DNA from: Flavobacterium sp. CFS9
GTDB taxonomy: Bacteria; Bacteroidota; Bacteroidia; Flavobacteriales; Flavobacteriaceae
Length of the DNA stretch: 64,000 nt
Direction of reading: 5' to 3'
Assembly (NCBI RefSeq): GCF_041154745.1
Contig: NZ_AP031573.1
Location: forward strand, 2,046,001-2,110,000
Positions 41,930 through 48,102 of this stretch are shown piece by piece (positions within the stretch are counted from its first letter, which is position 1; each line of letters begins with the position of its first letter). The notes under the pieces are model-generated. The model was not told the origin of the DNA and ran no database searches. It saw only the letters and a program-made list of their open reading frames with translations. The position numbers were made by a program, and so were the translations under genes.

Positions 41930-43228
41930 TTACTTTACGAATACAGATTTAAATTGATACAGTAATCTTTCTATAAGCCGCAAATCTTCCGTTATGATAT
42001 CTGCAGTTCCCTGCATTTCCTGCTGAAAAGGGATGTTTTTCTTGTATGAAGTTTCTAGTCCTCTAGGTAAATTAACATCTATTAAGATATTTCCTTCTTT
42101 GTCAGGAGTTAAAGATTTTTTTATGATGATTCCTTTAATAATACCGAATTCTTTTTGAGGATAGTTTAGTAGTTTTATGTTTACTTTTTGACCTGGTTTT
42201 ATCTTTCCTGAGTTTAAAACAGGTGCTTTTAGTTTTCCAATGTAACCGTTTTGATCTTTTGGAATAATTGAAAACAGGATTTGTCCGGCTTCAACAGGTT
42301 GATTTCTGGACCATAGTTGTAGAAAATTAATGATGCCGTTAGTTGCGGAACTTAAAAGATATTTTAATTCCCATTCTTTAACGGCATTTTTTAGTTGATA
42401 GAAAGCTTGTATTTTATTTCGATTAACATTACTATCTTCTTTACGTTCATTGATTTGCGTTGTTTTGTTATTTTTGTTTAATTCGTTTAATGAGGATTTT
42501 AATTGCGAAATGGTACTTAGCAAAGTTTTATAGCCTTTTTGGGCCTGTAAATAAAGCAATCGCTGTTTCTCTACTTCTTGCGTCGAATAGATTCCCTTTT
42601 TAAATAAAAGTTCGTAGCGGTTTAAATCATTCGTTTGTATGGTGAGTTCACTTTCATTAATTTCTTTTTGAGATTCCAGTAAATGTAAACGTTCTTTTAG
42701 TTGAATGCTTTCATAGTTTTGTGCATCTCCTTCTACTTTATAGGGACGGAGTTCTGTATTGAGTTGATCTGCTGTGTTTTCTTTTTGAAAATTTGTAAAA
42801 GCACTTTCAATATCTCCTAACTGTGAATATTTCAGTTTTTCAAAAGGAAATTCAGTCTTTTTTATGTTTATAGTGTTCAGGATATTTTTTAAAGCAAAGA
42901 CATCTTTATAATTGGCTGAATTTTCAAAAACAGCAATTGGAGTATTTAATTTTACCTCTGATCTATCTTTTACTAATATTGCTTCAATTTTACCGGATAG
43001 TTTTGCTTGTATCTTTTGTGGAGGAATATTTGTTGTTATTATGATCTGTGAAGTTATAATATCGGGATATTTAATGAACCACGAGATTAGCAATAAAATA
43101 ATAATAAATATAAATAAGATACTGTTTCCCCATTTTTGTATACTTTTAGGAGGGTCTGATAATATATCATGTACTTCTTCACTATAGATTTTTAGTCCAT
43201 CTTTTATCTCTTCCATGTTAGTTGCCAA
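41930..43228 (-). CDS. HlyD family secretion adaptor of peptide exporter
   Basis: 432 residues; membrane-fusion protein that joins the inner-membrane ABC exporter to an outer-membrane channel. It has a cytoplasmic tail, one transmembrane helix (residues ~34-52, ILFIFIIILLLISWFI), a split lipoyl/barrel domain (IQAKLSGKIEAILVKD at ~70-90 and the return strand near 290), a long coiled-coil hairpin (~120-280) and a C-terminal beta barrel. It overlaps the ABC exporter stop by 11 bp and is last in the peptide-export operon. No TolC-like gene is adjacent, so a channel encoded elsewhere is implied. Confidence 0.9.
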   Translation of the reverse strand: MATNMEEIKDGLKIYSEEVHDILSDPPKSIQKWGNSILFIFIIILLLISWFIKYPDIITSQIIITTNIPPQKIQAKLSGKIEAILVKDRSEVKLNTPIAVFENSANYKDVFALKNILNTINIKKTEFPFEKLKYSQLGDIESAFTNFQKENTADQLNTELRPYKVEGDAQNYESIQLKERLHLLESQKEINESELTIQTNDLNRYELLFKKGIYSTQEVEKQRLLYLQAQKGYKTLLSTISQLKSSLNELNKNNKTTQINERKEDSNVNRNKIQAFYQLKNAVKEWELKYLLSSATNGIINFLQLWSRNQPVEAGQILFSIIPKDQNGYIGKLKAPVLNSGKIKPGQKVNIKLLNYPQKEFGIIKGIIIKKSLTPDKEGNILIDVNLPRGLETSYKKNIPFQQEMQGTADIITEDLRLIERLLYQFKSVFVK

Positions 43229-45416
43229 GTTCTAATTGATTTTTAATCAGTTCGTAGTATGTACCTTTTAATCTAGTTAGGTCTTTATGATTTCCCTGCT
43301 CTACAATTTCGCCATTTTCTAAAACAATAATATTGTCGGCATTTTTTACGGTGCTTAATCGATGAGCTACAATTATTGCAGTTTTGCCATGTATAAATTT
43401 ATTAAGGTTCTCCATGATGCTTTTTTCATTATTTGCATCAAGTGCACTTGTTGCTTCGTCAAAAAATAGATATAAAGGATTTTTATAAACTGCTCTTGCA
43501 ATCATGATTCTTTGTTCTTGTCCGCCACTGAGGCGTATTCCTGAAGTCCCTAATTCAGTGTTGTATTTGTTAGGTAATCTTTCAATGAAATCTTCGATGT
43601 TAGCGATCAATGCCGCATTGTTCAACTTTTCTCTGTTTATTATTTCATTTTGTTCCGATTCAGAAATGTTGCCGCCAATTGTATCATTAAAAATAAAGGT
43701 ATCCTGCATGACTGCTCCGCAATTCAGTCGCCAGGATTCAGTATTTATATCATTTAGGTTTGCAGATCCCAAATTAATGCTGCCTTTTGTGGGTTCATAG
43801 AATTTTAAAAGTAATTTCATTAAAGTTGTCTTGCCGCTTCCACTGGCGCCAACAATAGCTGTTGTTTTGCTTTCAGGAATCGTACAAGTGATATTTTTTA
43901 AAATGAAAGGAGATGATTTTCCGCCATAACGATAAGAAAGGTCTTTGATAATAATAGATTTGTCTTTAGGTAGTTCTTTGCTTTTATTAACCGAAATATC
44001 GTCTTCATCCTCTCGCAGGTGCACTTGAGACAATCGTTCTAAGCTTATTTTAGCATCTTGCCAGGATTGTATAAATAAGACGAAATTTCCTAATGGCATG
44101 TTGAGCTGCCCTACAATAAACTGTATAGAAGTCATCATTCCTAATGTTAAAGTGCCATCAACTACAGCTTTGGCAGAGAGGAAGGTGATAATGATATTCT
44201 TCAATTCATTTATAAAGTTGGCTCCAATGGTTTGATATTGGGATAGTTTCAATGTGCTTAATGAAGTTTTAAAAAGACTAATTTGATTGAATTCCCATTT
44301 CCATCTGTTTTTTCGTTGAGAATTATTTACTTTAATTTCTTTGACTCCGTTTATTATTTGAATTAAAGAAGTTTGGCTCTGCGATAGTTGATCAAACCTT
44401 TTGAAATCTAATTCAGCTCTTTTTTTTAAGAAGAAAAAAGTCCAGCATACATATAAAATTGCAGAAGATATAAAGACTAAGAATATTGTTAAATTATAAT
44501 ACGCTAGTATGCCATTGAACAAGATGAATGTTATGATTGAAAACAGCATGTTTAAGCTGGAAGAAGAAATGAAGTTTTGAATACGTGTATGATCTGTAAT
44601 TCGTTGCAGGTGTTCTCCTGAATTTCTGGTTTCAAAATAATTAACAGGCAGCTTAAGCATTTTATATAAAAAATCTGAAATCATTTTAATATTAAACCTA
44701 CTCGTTATATGAATTAGAATCCACTCCCGGAAAACGCTAACCAGTGTTTGTGAAAGTATTAGAACAAATTGTGAGATTAGAATTAAGTAAATAAAAGGTA
44801 TGTCTTGATTGTTTACACCCACATCAACTACAGATTGCATTAAAAATGGCAGAATCAGTTGAATAACAGTCGCAACCAGTAAGCCAATAAGTATTTGATT
44901 AATTAGTTTTTTGTAAGGTTTGAAATAAGGGTATAAGAATGAAAAGCCTGTGTTTTGATCTTTGGCTTGTTGTTGTTTCTGAAATTTAGCATTTGGTTCC
45001 AGAATTAGGACAAAACCTGTTTCATCTGTTGTGTTTGTCCAGGCTGTTTTAAAATCATTATGATCGTATGTAAGAATGCCTTGCGCCGGATCGGCTATAT
45101 AAATTTTTGTTTTTGACGTTTTGTAAACAACTACAAAGTGTTTCTGTCGCCAGGGAACAATAAAAGGAGGTGGAGCCTCATTAAGCAAACTTTCGAAAGA
45201 AATCCTCATACCCAGAGTTCGCATTTCTATAGCTTCGGCTGCCTCGGCAATTCCTGCCATGGTTACGCCAATTCTTGTGATGTTGGCTTTATCTCTTAGA
45301 AATTCTCTTGAGAAATTTTTTCCATAATATTTAGCGATCATTCTGAGACAGGTTGGTCCGCAATCTTTATTGTCCAGCTGCCTGAAAAATGGAAAGCTTT
45401 TTCTAATCATTTCCAT
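43218..45416 (-). CDS. C39-peptidase ABC exporter (PCAT) for double-glycine peptides
   Basis: 732 residues. This inner-membrane transporter cuts the leader after a Gly-Gly site and exports the peptide. The N-terminal C39 protease has Cys19 (DCGPTCLRM), His93 (QKHFVVVY) and Asp109 (IADPAQG), with oxyanion Gln13; all catalytic residues are intact. The transmembrane domain has six helices (~165-440). The nucleotide-binding domain has GASGSGKTT, LSGGQEQR, YLFFDEATSALD and AHRLSTV. The ATG at 45410 is an alternative start. It overlaps both neighbours, so the operon is tightly coupled. The likely cargo is the 55-residue precursor at 47406-47573. Confidence 0.95.
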   Translation of the reverse strand: MEMIRKSFPFFRQLDNKDCGPTCLRMIAKYYGKNFSREFLRDKANITRIGVTMAGIAEAAEAIEMRTLGMRISFESLLNEAPPPFIVPWRQKHFVVVYKTSKTKIYIADPAQGILTYDHNDFKTAWTNTTDETGFVLILEPNAKFQKQQQAKDQNTGFSFLYPYFKPYKKLINQILIGLLVATVIQLILPFLMQSVVDVGVNNQDIPFIYLILISQFVLILSQTLVSVFREWILIHITSRFNIKMISDFLYKMLKLPVNYFETRNSGEHLQRITDHTRIQNFISSSSLNMLFSIITFILFNGILAYYNLTIFLVFISSAILYVCWTFFFLKKRAELDFKRFDQLSQSQTSLIQIINGVKEIKVNNSQRKNRWKWEFNQISLFKTSLSTLKLSQYQTIGANFINELKNIIITFLSAKAVVDGTLTLGMMTSIQFIVGQLNMPLGNFVLFIQSWQDAKISLERLSQVHLREDEDDISVNKSKELPKDKSIIIKDLSYRYGGKSSPFILKNITCTIPESKTTAIVGASGSGKTTLMKLLLKFYEPTKGSINLGSANLNDINTESWRLNCGAVMQDTFIFNDTIGGNISESEQNEIINREKLNNAALIANIEDFIERLPNKYNTELGTSGIRLSGGQEQRIMIARAVYKNPLYLFFDEATSALDANNEKSIMENLNKFIHGKTAIIVAHRLSTVKNADNIIVLENGEIVEQGNHKDLTRLKGTYYELIKNQLELGN

Positions 45417-46210
45417 TTTTTTTGATATGGATATATCTCATAAATAGTGTTGTCTTCAGTTATGGTGTTTCCATTTTTTGCATCTATTTTAGCTTCTTCC
45501 ACCAATAATTTGACGTCTTCTAATTTTATTCCGGTCTTCAATAAACAAATCGCTTTATAATACTTTGCATCTGAAAAAGCTGGGTATATTTTTAAAGCTT
45601 TGTTAAATTCGATAATTGCCTCGTTCCATTTTTTTTGCTCATATTTTGAGATTCCATAGTAGAATAGTGCTGTAGGGTGTTCTAAACCTTGCCTGTTTTT
45701 ATAAATATCGTCAATGTATTCTTTGAAAATTCCCTCAGCTTTTTTAAATTCATTTAACTGCAAATAGCATAAACCAATATAAAAATTGTATGTATGATCC
45801 ATTCTATATCCATTTCCGTATTTTTTTATACAATCTTCAAAATCTATAATTGCCTCTTTGTATGTTTTGGCAAAAATGCATTTAATAAAGGCGCGATATG
45901 GTAGCCATTCGTGAGGATTATATTGGACGGCTTTGTTCAAGTATTGCATTCCGATTTCATATTTTTTTACCTTAAAATAAGGCATTGCTTTTTGTTGCCA
46001 TAAATAAGCAATGGTACTATCTTTTTTTAATCCGTCATCTAAGCAGTTCTGCCATTCAGCCATTTCATATAAAAAATTATATTTTTCAGCACAATTATTT
46101 ACATATTCTGTAATAATTTCATCTTGTTTTTTTTTTGATTCTGTATTTGTTTGTGAGTAAAACAATTGTGTGAATGGAAATATAATCAGTAAGAGTATAG
46201 TTTTCTTCAA
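45407..46210 (-). CDS. Exported tetratricopeptide-repeat protein
   Basis: 267 residues. The signal peptide ends FTQLFYSQ. At least four TPR-like helix pairs follow, e.g. YLQLNEFKKAEGIFKEYI and KKWNEAIIEFNKALKIYPAFSDAKYYKAICLL. It is probably periplasmic and could scaffold the exporter or bind peptide; no catalytic motif was seen. Located 6 bp after the HQAGH-protein gene and overlapping the exporter start by 10 bp, so it belongs to the peptide operon. Function inferred from context only. Confidence 0.85.
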   Translation of the reverse strand: MKKTILLLIIFPFTQLFYSQTNTESKKKQDEIITEYVNNCAEKYNFLYEMAEWQNCLDDGLKKDSTIAYLWQQKAMPYFKVKKYEIGMQYLNKAVQYNPHEWLPYRAFIKCIFAKTYKEAIIDFEDCIKKYGNGYRMDHTYNFYIGLCYLQLNEFKKAEGIFKEYIDDIYKNRQGLEHPTALFYYGISKYEQKKWNEAIIEFNKALKIYPAFSDAKYYKAICLLKTGIKLEDVKLLVEEAKIDAKNGNTITEDNTIYEIYPYQKKWK

Positions 46211-46216
46211 AATTAT

Positions 46217-47332
46217 CTAATGATTTAGTTTGTTAAAATGCTCAAATGTAAAATTATAAGGTTGATTACTATAATTAAAAGTACTTATTGTAGGAAGCCA
46301 GTTTTCAGAAAAAATCAAAAGATTTTCTTTAATAAACAAATAAAACTTTATGCCATCTGAATTTAGGACATTTTCAATTCCTTTAAAAAAGACATTTATT
46401 TGTTCAAATCTTTCTAGGTCAATATTACATTTATTTAAGTAAAAACCAATCCGAGCAATCGATTCCTTCTTTTGTTTATTGTTGAATACTTTGTTTTTTA
46501 GGCAATTATCTAAACACAGTATAGTAGTATAGTAAGTATATAATGCATGTAGAAGAGTGTTTATGGTTCTGTGATCTTTTTGGTTTGTAATTTCCTCTAC
46601 CTTATGTTCTTCATTTATTTTGAAGATTTTTTTCTTATCAAAAAATAATGTTGTTAAGATAATATGACCCGCTTGATGGGCTATATCATCTACAAAAAAG
46701 ACTTCGTCATAATCATCTTGATAAACATTTATAAAAGCAATTCCATGTGCTTTTATTGTAGCAAATGAATTTGTATTGGCTGGATTTGTTTTAAAAAGAA
46801 CAATTTTTTTACAACATTGATTTATTAGGCCAAAGTATTTGGGAGAATTTTCTTTTATTAAGTTAATAGCATTGGTTAAATACGAAATGTTTTTTTGAAA
46901 CAAAGAATTAGTAACGATTATTTCTTTTCTGTTAATAATTTGATTTTGTTTATTTCTGAATATATTGTTGTGAAAATAGATTGGATATTTCAGAATTTCA
47001 ATACTTGTATTTTCTATTATATGTATTTGTTCAAATAGTTCAGGATTATCTTCTGTAAAATATCCTAAGTATGGGAGATAAGCAATGTTATTTAGATAAT
47101 GTGAAGAATTAATTTGAAGATTTTGATTTTTTAAGAAATAACCCTGCATAAATTCAGTTAATAATTCAGACGACCATTTTTCTTCGGTTTTGTAGTTAAA
47201 AAAAGTAAATAGCAAAGGCTCTAAGAATGCATCTTTATGGTTAAAATCTATTTCTTTTAATAGTAAAGGGGCTTCTTTTAATAGTAGAAGTTTAATTGTT
47301 TCTTTTATTTTGTCTTGATTAATAAGATTCAT
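46217..47332 (-). CDS. Putative HExxH-type RiPP-modifying enzyme (HQAGH variant)
   Basis: 371 residues, no signal peptide, cytoplasmic. The motif DIAHQAGHIIL gives His219-x3-His223 with Gln220 in place of Glu. About 40 residues on comes KDHRTINTLLHALYTYYTTI with Arg255 and His262. The pair H(E/Q)xxH plus R...LLHxxY is the pattern I associate with the HExxH putative peptide-modification family, proposed to be 2-oxoglutarate-dependent peptide beta-hydroxylases; in that chemistry the Glu need not be a metal ligand. Overall similarity is low and the assignment rests on these motifs and on the cluster. Alternatives are an unrelated accessory or immunity protein. It lies directly downstream of a precursor-peptide gene and upstream of the export genes. 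Confidence 0.62.
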   Translation of the reverse strand: MNLINQDKIKETIKLLLLKEAPLLLKEIDFNHKDAFLEPLLFTFFNYKTEEKWSSELLTEFMQGYFLKNQNLQINSSHYLNNIAYLPYLGYFTEDNPELFEQIHIIENTSIEILKYPIYFHNNIFRNKQNQIINRKEIIVTNSLFQKNISYLTNAINLIKENSPKYFGLINQCCKKIVLFKTNPANTNSFATIKAHGIAFINVYQDDYDEVFFVDDIAHQAGHIILTTLFFDKKKIFKINEEHKVEEITNQKDHRTINTLLHALYTYYTTILCLDNCLKNKVFNNKQKKESIARIGFYLNKCNIDLERFEQINVFFKGIENVLNSDGIKFYLFIKENLLIFSENWLPTISTFNYSNQPYNFTFEHFNKLNH

Positions 47333-47346
47333 TATTCGAGTTTGTT

Positions 47347-47402
47347 ACACGACTCGTGTTTTTGATTAATCCCCTCCATTGATTAATTTGGAGGGGTTTT
47401 TT
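47347..47402. other. Two stem-loops between precursor gene and biosynthesis operon
   Basis: CCCCTCCA / TGGAGGGG (47371-47378 with 47389-47396) and ACACGA-C-TCGTGT (47347-47359) lie in the 73-bp gap. The T-run (47397-47402) is on the plus-strand side, so for minus-strand transcripts the first hairpin lacks a U-tract. It more likely stabilises the short precursor mRNA or attenuates than fully terminates. Confidence 0.55.
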
Positions 47403-47405
47403 AAA

Positions 47406-47573
47406 TTAACAAATTGTACAATCCTCTTTTTTAGGCGGTTGTTTGGCATCAATATCTAAGATTCCAGTTAAGTGACAGTCTCCATTTGTTCCCCCATTAA
47501 TTGCATTTAATAACTCGTCTGAAGCCATAGCTTCTGCTCTTTCTTTTAGAGCATCTAATGTTAATTTACTCAT
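47406..47573 (-). CDS. RiPP/bacteriocin-like precursor peptide with double-glycine leader
   Basis: 55 residues, too short for ordinary gene finders. It starts MSKLTLDALKERAEAMASDE and continues LLNAINGG, a double-Gly cleavage site (Gly27-Gly28) with Ile at -4 and Leu at -7, as in leaders cut by C39 exporters. The predicted core is 27 residues (29-55): TNGDCHLTG..., an acidic ILDID segment, QPPKK, and a CTIC end. It holds three cysteines (33, 52, 55), one His and several Asp residues. It is the first gene of the operon with the HQAGH protein, TPR protein, C39 exporter and HlyD adaptor. No sequence-similar second precursor was seen. Confidence 0.82.
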   Translation of the reverse strand: MSKLTLDALKERAEAMASDELLNAINGGTNGDCHLTGILDIDAKQPPKKEDCTIC

Positions 47574-47781
47574 TGTGTTAGTTTTTAAATTGATTAATAC
47601 TAATACTATTTATTTTTAATTTACTCCTATTAGATACAATTCAAAGTAGGAATATATTTACTTTTTAAAAGTATGTATAAATCTCTTGATTATACTTATT
47701 GCATTCAGAATAAAATATTCGAATTTGAAATATTTTTATAAGAATTTTCTTTTATATTTATAATTGCTTAACTTTTGAATT

Positions 47782-48102
47782 ATGGGCGTAGGAGAAAATA
47801 TAAGAAAGTATCGAAGAGAAAAAGATCTTAAGGCAGAAGAGGTTTCCGAGAAAATAGGAATTAGTCAGTCTACTTATTCAAAAATTGAGAATAACAGGTG
47901 TAAAATTGATGTTGAAATTTTGAAGAATATAGCGGCTGTTCTTGAAGTTGATGTTACACAACTAATGGGAAACGAGGTGAGAAATACAAAATTTGAGGAT
48001 TCGGATAAATTAATAAAATCTCTGGAAAATCAGATAGAGCTATTGAAAGAACAAAATCACATATTAAAGCAAGAAAATATAGTACTTAAAAGTAGAAAAT
48101 AA
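47782..48102 (+). CDS. XRE-family regulator with C-terminal coiled coil
   Basis: 106 residues. The N-terminal Cro/C1-type HTH (residues 5-62: IRKYRREKDLKAEEVSEKIG, then ISQSTYSKIENNRCKID) is followed by a leucine/glutamate-rich coiled coil (~73-102, LIKSLENQIELLKEQNHILK), which likely dimerises. It is divergently oriented to the peptide locus across a 208-bp AT-rich spacer, the usual place for a local regulator. Direct regulation is inferred; this protein type is also common as a stand-alone gene in Bacteroidota. Confidence 0.88.
   Translation: MGVGENIRKYRREKDLKAEEVSEKIGISQSTYSKIENNRCKIDVEILKNIAAVLEVDVTQLMGNEVRNTKFEDSDKLIKSLENQIELLKEQNHILKQENIVLKSRK

Follow-up and report, generated by a model that had tools for sequence, protein, structure and literature searches.

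Comparison With Described Peptide-Modifying Systems

The peptide beta-hydroxylases of the alpha-ketoglutarate (aKG)-HExxH family (TIGR04267), which include ChlH/ChlB, PflC, PosC, PesO, and BpmH/BipH, are the closest described counterparts of an enzyme encoded at a compact locus of Flavobacterium sp. CFS9, located at positions 41930..48102 of the 64,000-nt stretch of contig NZ_AP031573.1 analyzed here (hereafter, the window). According to the available text of the respective papers, beta-hydroxylation by these enzymes has been described for His, Asp, Phe, Gln, and Pro residues, PflC and PosC also cleave the peptide backbone oxidatively (PMC12636437, PMC13060819, PMC12707348), and ChlH, the structure of which has been solved, acts on His and Asp (PMC12636437). 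The window enzyme differs from them in having Gln in place of the motif Glu and in scoring below the TIGR04267 cut-off, and its operon, unlike the aKG-HExxH clusters, contains no radical SAM or MNIO enzyme according to Pfam. It further combines a short double-glycine leader with an exporter carrying its own C39 protease, whereas the pfl and pos clusters, as described in the available text of PMC12636437, have NHLP-like leaders and no protease gene.

The best NCBIfam match of the window exporter is TIGR03796, one of the models of the NHLP systems (TIGR03794/03796/03797), whereas the low score (437.9 bits vs. a cut-off of 853.3) and the leader of about 28 residues set the locus apart from these systems. 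The Gly-Gly leader, the exporter with C39 peptidase and ATP-binding cassette (ABC) domains, and the HlyD adaptor are shared with class II bacteriocin and microcin systems that use peptidase-containing ABC transporters (PCAT), a likeness extended by the CAAX-protease-like membrane proteins of several relatives, since such proteins are often linked to bacteriocin immunity; what distinguishes the window from these systems is a candidate tailoring enzyme and the conservation of a Cys-His dipeptide. The ovothiol pathway, a small-molecule pathway that uses His, Cys, and S-adenosylmethionine, and the enzyme of which (OvoA) differs from that of the window, provides no more than an analogy for Cys-His chemistry.

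We consider it probable that the locus is a cluster for a ribosomally synthesized and post-translationally modified peptide (RiPP), which makes, oxidizes, and exports a Cys-His peptide. As in RiPP clusters, a short precursor with a Gly-Gly leader is encoded beside a C39-ABC exporter, and this arrangement recurs in relatives (labeled below with L numbers for loci and G numbers for genomes).

Precursor Family and Cys-His Dipeptide

The precursor gene (47406..47573, minus strand) encodes 55 amino acids (aa), with a leader of residues 1–28 and a core of 27 residues (29–55), as an earlier note on this DNA had proposed. The leader ends in Gly27-Gly28 (codons 47490..47495, minus strand), the predicted site of C39 cleavage, which is invariant in the precursor alignment A4; the dipeptide Cys33-His34 (CH; codons 47472..47477, minus strand) is located four residues past it. 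Small open reading frames (ORFs) with the leader pattern MKLSLDALKERAEAxASxELLxxIxGG recur near the enzyme gene in relatives, mostly upstream, and the conserved leader of the family is MSKLTLDALKERAEAMASDELLNAINGG.

Since the first pattern search for precursors required CH, and the rows of A4 were likewise CH-selected, these data are circular with respect to CH conservation, which was therefore retested with a leader-only profile on 4729 small ORFs from 40 loci containing an enzyme relative (threshold E ≤ 0.01). The profile gave 46 matches in 34 loci, each with CH after Gly-Gly (46/46). The training rows of this profile had been chosen for CH as well, and 16 of the 40 loci repeat genomes of the training set, so that the figure to trust is that for the other 24 loci, where all 27 matches (20 loci) contain CH. 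For comparison, among 569 small ORFs that have a Gly-Gly-like site and serve as background, 10 contain CH, and a few of these 10 are probably true precursors missed by the profile. Exactly four residues separate Gly-Gly from CH in 36/46 matches and in 22/27 matches from the untrained loci. A whole-genome search with the DNA pattern GG..CH was not informative (forward matches, 164 vs. 146 in the control; reverse matches, 157 vs. 126).

A hairpin of eight pairs (47396-47371, minus strand; z -3.0 vs. shuffles) directly follows the precursor stop codon. The 80 nt past one precursor from each of 21 relatives fold with -12 to -28 kcal/mol in 18 cases and near -10 kcal/mol in three (energies without shuffles), and the hairpin possibly sets the stoichiometry of precursor and enzyme. 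A second short inverted repeat (47337-47356) lies just upstream of the enzyme start and is possibly a part of translational control.

Predicted Fold and Candidate Metal Site of the HQxxH Enzyme

The enzyme gene (46217..47332, minus strand) encodes 371 aa; neither this protein nor the precursor has a Pfam match. The earlier note had taken it for the peptide modifier and had proposed a structural comparison with HExxH peptide hydroxylases, and the predicted model indeed resembles the aKG-HExxH domain, not an unrelated fold, which supports the proposed role in modification. Searches of PDB sequences with the enzyme alignments A1 and A2 returned chance matches only; the link to ChlH was obtained either by structure comparison or via L083, a distant HExxH relative and the only one of the singly scanned relatives to pass TIGR04267 (54.8 bits). 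In that locus, the HExxH protein is directly followed by what appears by eye to be an arginase-family gene (L083:1438-3413).

The two His residues of the H219-Q220-A221-G222-H223 motif (codons 46664..46678, minus strand) are invariant in A1 (42 sequences) and A3 (15 sequences, with degenerate copies excluded), and His262 (46547..46549, minus strand) is nearly so. Through L083 (E 0.1), H219, H223, and H262 correspond to His residues of ChlH, His262 being aligned with that of LLHAIF. All three are conserved among relatives, as is Arg294 (46451..46453, minus strand), which is invariant in A1 and is the candidate aKG-binding Arg. One relative associated with a CH precursor (L047) retains Glu in the motif (HEGSH).

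The replacement of Glu by Gln would also suit an inactive zincin-like binder that delivers the precursor to the exporter, with CH as the docking site and the peptide left unmodified save for cleavage or disulfides. Copies that have lost HxxxH do exist in this family: nine loci (L033, L068, L071, L114, L115, L117-L120) encode two adjoining copies, one with intact HQxxH and one without HxxxH. The same pairs suggest a partnership of active enzyme and pseudo-enzyme, in which the intact copy has work to do; moreover, conservation of the His residues at the level seen in A1 and A3 would be odd for a dead enzyme, and further modifying enzymes adjoin the cluster in some relatives. We regard an inactive binder as rather unlikely. 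The zincin-like fold and HxxxH motif could likewise belong to a metallopeptidase responsible for trimming the peptide or for leader removal, and hydrolysis of a truncated substrate is described for PflC, which has the same fold, in the available text of PMC12636437; the motif Gln makes hydrolysis unlikely, and this assignment appears highly improbable.

Association and Co-variation of Precursor and Enzyme

Co-variation was analyzed in 54 loci (the window, the 40 loci, and 13 further loci) with 64 CH cores. The residue after CH is Asp in all eight precursors of the EE[LI]IHQ[GA][SA]H enzyme clade and in none of the other 56 (Fisher p 2e-10), and cores with CHxxxCH were found in five of seven cores from loci with intact and degenerate enzyme copies versus none of the other 57 (p 3e-6), although the loci are related by descent, so that these p-values overstate independence. 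The change after CH is illustrated by L034 (DDIAHQTGH enzyme) and L036 (EEIIHQASH), whose precursors are identical from ELLATISGG through TENACH and continue with Cys and Asp, respectively. Both CHxxxCH exceptions are precursors of L114, with a single CH each. Three of the 64 cores have no full-length enzyme in the stretch (L133, L073, and L107) and fall among the 56 other cores, and three come from the CH-requiring pattern.

At the level of the genus, 24 of 299 genomes match the A4 precursor profile at E ≤ 0.1. Of these genomes, 12 match strongly (E < 1e-14), and all 12 are enzyme-positive; they also supplied training rows of A4, and the informative part of the test is that no enzyme-less genome matched at E < 1e-14. 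In G307 (precursor match E 9e-9), a CH precursor lies beside an enzyme fragment of 106 aa (L107:7505-8065), apparently a decayed copy of the cluster. The genome containing the window has a second Gly-Gly/C39/HlyD locus approximately 55 kb beyond it (L106:7595-8215; G000:C1:2164594-2165214), with four small ORFs that have RGNGxGS-type tails; it contains neither an HQxxH enzyme nor CH, and CH thus goes with the enzyme, not with C39 export. A nearly identical arrangement was observed in G182 (L108).

Distribution and Gene Neighborhoods

Enzyme matches were found in 21/398 genomes of the genus, 7/299 genomes of the family sample, and 6/395 genomes of the class sample, the window genome being included each time; the match in G412, counted among the 21, is probably false (E 9.9e-4, internal stops). 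In a sample of 296 genomes from the phylum, none had a TIGR04267 match (E ≤ 0.001). A scan of genome contigs with the single window enzyme gave no confirmed relative, and the alignment-based scan gave the 40 loci, which come from Flavobacterium, Kordia, Aureivirga, Patiriisocius, Aquimarina, Chryseobacterium, Mucilaginibacter, Dyadobacter, Emticicia, Taibaiella, and others. The search for the same gene order in other Bacteroidota proposed in the earlier note was borne out, since a leader-detected precursor, a full-length C39 exporter, and an HlyD relative are present in the stretch in 34, 27, and 26 of the 40 loci, respectively, and the gene set is thus not a chance assembly. Outside Bacteroidota, an HQAGH relative is encoded on a plasmid of the alphaproteobacterium Pseudorhodobacter turbinis (L085:3737-4594), and no GG-CH precursor was detected in its vicinity; plasmids searched by tblastn with the L072 enzyme yielded one weak match.

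The remaining genes vary among relatives. The tetratricopeptide repeat (TPR) protein is replaced or accompanied by an amidohydrolase-like protein in L003 and L036-L039 (Pfam on L003 only), by a protein of about 391 aa with no Pfam match in L034 and L040, and by an aspartyl-protease-like protein in L036. CAAX-protease-like (Rce1) membrane proteins, which likewise replace or accompany the TPR protein, exceed the Pfam cut-off in L037, L069, L070, L072, and L073 and fall below it in L031 and L032. Carnosine N-methyltransferase-like proteins (PF07942, above the cut-off) are encoded in or near the cluster in L047, L072, and L080, and an aldo/keto reductase is clear in L072, with sub-cut-off matches in L047 and, weakly, in L080. 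In the latter, the region that separates the HQxxH enzyme from the C39 exporter (L080:4859-8321) encodes the methyltransferase-like protein, which carries a PqqD-like segment, and, after it, a protein with a metallo-beta-lactamase fold and another with weak similarity to aldo/keto reductases.

Organization of the Window Operon

The five minus-strand ORFs and the divergent regulator ORF that the earlier note had described were recovered from the ORF list and the sequence. Downstream of the enzyme gene is the TPR gene (45407..46210, minus strand; 267 aa), which starts with TTG; by eye, the N-terminus of its product looks like a secretion signal, so that the protein is probably not cytoplasmic, and it is missing or replaced in some relatives. 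The intact exporter (43218..45416, minus strand; 732 aa) matches Peptidase_C39 (E 4.4e-33), ABC_membrane, and ABC_tran in Pfam, and the identities proposed earlier for the adaptor, TPR protein, and regulator agree with matches to HlyD_3, TPR, and HTH_3. The HlyD-type adaptor (41930..43216, minus strand) has 428 aa when started at ATG 43216, which is the length of several close homologues; TTG at 43228 is a less likely start. The genes are closely adjacent, as had been noted, and HlyD need not overlap the exporter, since a single base separates the exporter stop codon from ATG 43216, its most likely start. In the six proteins, Pfam and NCBIfam scans found no radical SAM, LanB/LanM, or ATP-grasp enzyme, in agreement with the earlier note.

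The XRE-family regulator (47782..48102, plus strand; HTH_3 E 1.2e-14) is encoded divergently, and L003, L031, L032, L041, and L070 likewise have an XRE relative oriented divergently to the precursor. Sigma-70-like promoter matches showed no excess (29 found vs. 34.7 expected from shuffles). The G+C content is 30.4% in the operon and 27.3% in the precursor, enzyme, and TPR genes, compared with 35.6% in the window, which is consistent with acquisition. In PADLOC, the enzyme and TPR protein had no match, leaving an anti-phage reading without support there, and the XRE protein had helix-turn-helix matches only.

Proposed Mechanism and Contrary Evidence

In the proposed mechanism, the ribosomally made precursor would be brought by its conserved leader to the HQxxH enzyme, a putative mononuclear non-haem iron, aKG-dependent oxygenase with the metal probably bound by H219, H223, and H262. 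Oxidation by the enzyme would affect core positions 5-6 (the conserved Cys-His segment), with beta-hydroxylation of His34 as the most likely reaction (+16 Da). Cleavage after Gly-Gly by the C39 domain would follow, and the ABC exporter and HlyD adaptor would export the 27-residue product. The apparently secreted TPR protein may act outside the cytoplasm in maturation, retention, or self-protection, and expression may be under the control of the XRE protein. As for the product, antibacterial action, signaling, and metal or redox activity are all conceivable. The gene order, the predicted fold, the conservation of the motif, and the association and co-variation of precursor and enzyme are shown by the present data, and the cofactor, reaction, target atom, cleavage, and roles of the TPR protein, the XRE protein, and the product are inferred.

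The conserved CH, together with CHD in one clade, makes beta-hydroxylation of His (perhaps also of Asp in the CHD clade) the most likely reaction. CARNMT1 is described as a histidine methyltransferase in the available text of PMC10546973, and the carnosine N-methyltransferase-like neighbors thus point to His as a modified residue in the relatives that have them, and only indirectly in the window. The adjacent Cys and His of the cores are conserved to the same extent, so that the target could also be Cys or both. The reaction might accordingly be an oxidative coupling of Cys33 to His34 (as a C-S bond, thioether, or sulfoxide) or an oxidation of Cys in place of His hydroxylation; aKG-dependent Cys-Tyr cross-linking in a RiPP is among the reports cited in the available text of PMC12636437, and the L080 methyltransferase weakly matches the model of the OvoA C-terminal 4-mercaptohistidine N1-methyltransferase (E 9e-4). 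That match is far below the cut-off (18.8 vs. 170 bits) and comes from a distant relative, not from the window, and the available text of the aKG-HExxH papers describes hydroxylation and backbone cleavage, not cross-linking by enzymes of this fold (PMC12636437, PMC13060819, PMC12707348); we hold such coupling to be quite unlikely. It is doubtful, too, that the HQxxH clade is a distinct aKG-HExxH branch forming a new Cys-His residue (e.g., a C-S linkage or thiohistidine-like group), which would make these peptides a widespread Bacteroidota class of redox-active or metal-binding secreted products, elaborated by His methylation and keto-reduction in some relatives.

Besides the equal conservation of Cys and the limits on the co-variation counts given above, several results weigh against oxidation of a Cys-His peptide by this enzyme. 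The literal HExxH motif is absent, the Glu being lost both in the window (HQAGH) and in all 156 retrieved homologues (HQxGH); the window protein scores 15.5 bits with TIGR04267 (curated cut-off 40), this model matches 6/22 members of A2 at E ≤ 1, and it does not match the enzymes of L003, L036, L042, and L072. According to the alignment, on which the probable metal site is based, His262 is replaced by Gln in L042. Concerning precursors, the earlier note would have abandoned the idea on finding homologous loci devoid of a double-glycine small ORF; 34 of the 40 loci have a leader-detected precursor, and six (L113, L122, L142, L143, L144, and L148) gave no leader-only match, three of which (L142, L144, and L148) contain a CH ORF by the CH-requiring pattern. 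Weaker leader matches in L131 (E 0.066) and L134 (E 0.095) lack CH, and no CH precursor was found near the enzyme relatives of L082 and L083 (HExxH), L048 (HQCGH), and L085 (HQAGH). Finally, a full-length C39 exporter is missing from the stretch in 13/40 loci, including seven with full 8-kb flanks (L113, L117-L119, L129, L130, and L148, three Kordia loci among them), so that not all of these systems depend on a linked C39 protein for export.

Novelty and Significance

Among the open-access papers listed, none describes the HQxxH clade, the Cys-His precursors, or their pairing in its title or abstract, in keeping with the earlier suggestion of a possibly undescribed cluster type; the term "HQxxH" does not occur in the 20 of them that were checked for it, and the only paper among the matches listed for HExxH, RiPP, and Flavobacteri is on an unrelated peptidase. 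A survey of Bacteroidales RiPPs mentions C39 exporters and, in the passages checked, no HExxH, hydroxylase, or Flavobacteri (PMC10352776). The enzyme fold and Gly-Gly/C39 export are already known, whereas the HQxxH clade and the family of Cys-His precursors paired with it appear to be new with respect to the papers listed, and together they look like a recurring, so far undescribed type of modified-peptide system.

In the loci examined, CHD accompanies one enzyme clade without exception and no other, and each of the five CHxxxCH cores lies beside paired enzymes, so that enzyme-substrate rules are directly testable in this family, and the window operon, being minimal with one candidate enzyme and one peptide, is suited to reconstitution in E. 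coli. The single dipeptide conserved across the precursor family points to the target of the enzyme. If the proposed function is true, a very recently described oxygenase fold would extend to a clade without its eponymous Glu, in a phylum where TIGR04267 found nothing in the 296-genome sample.

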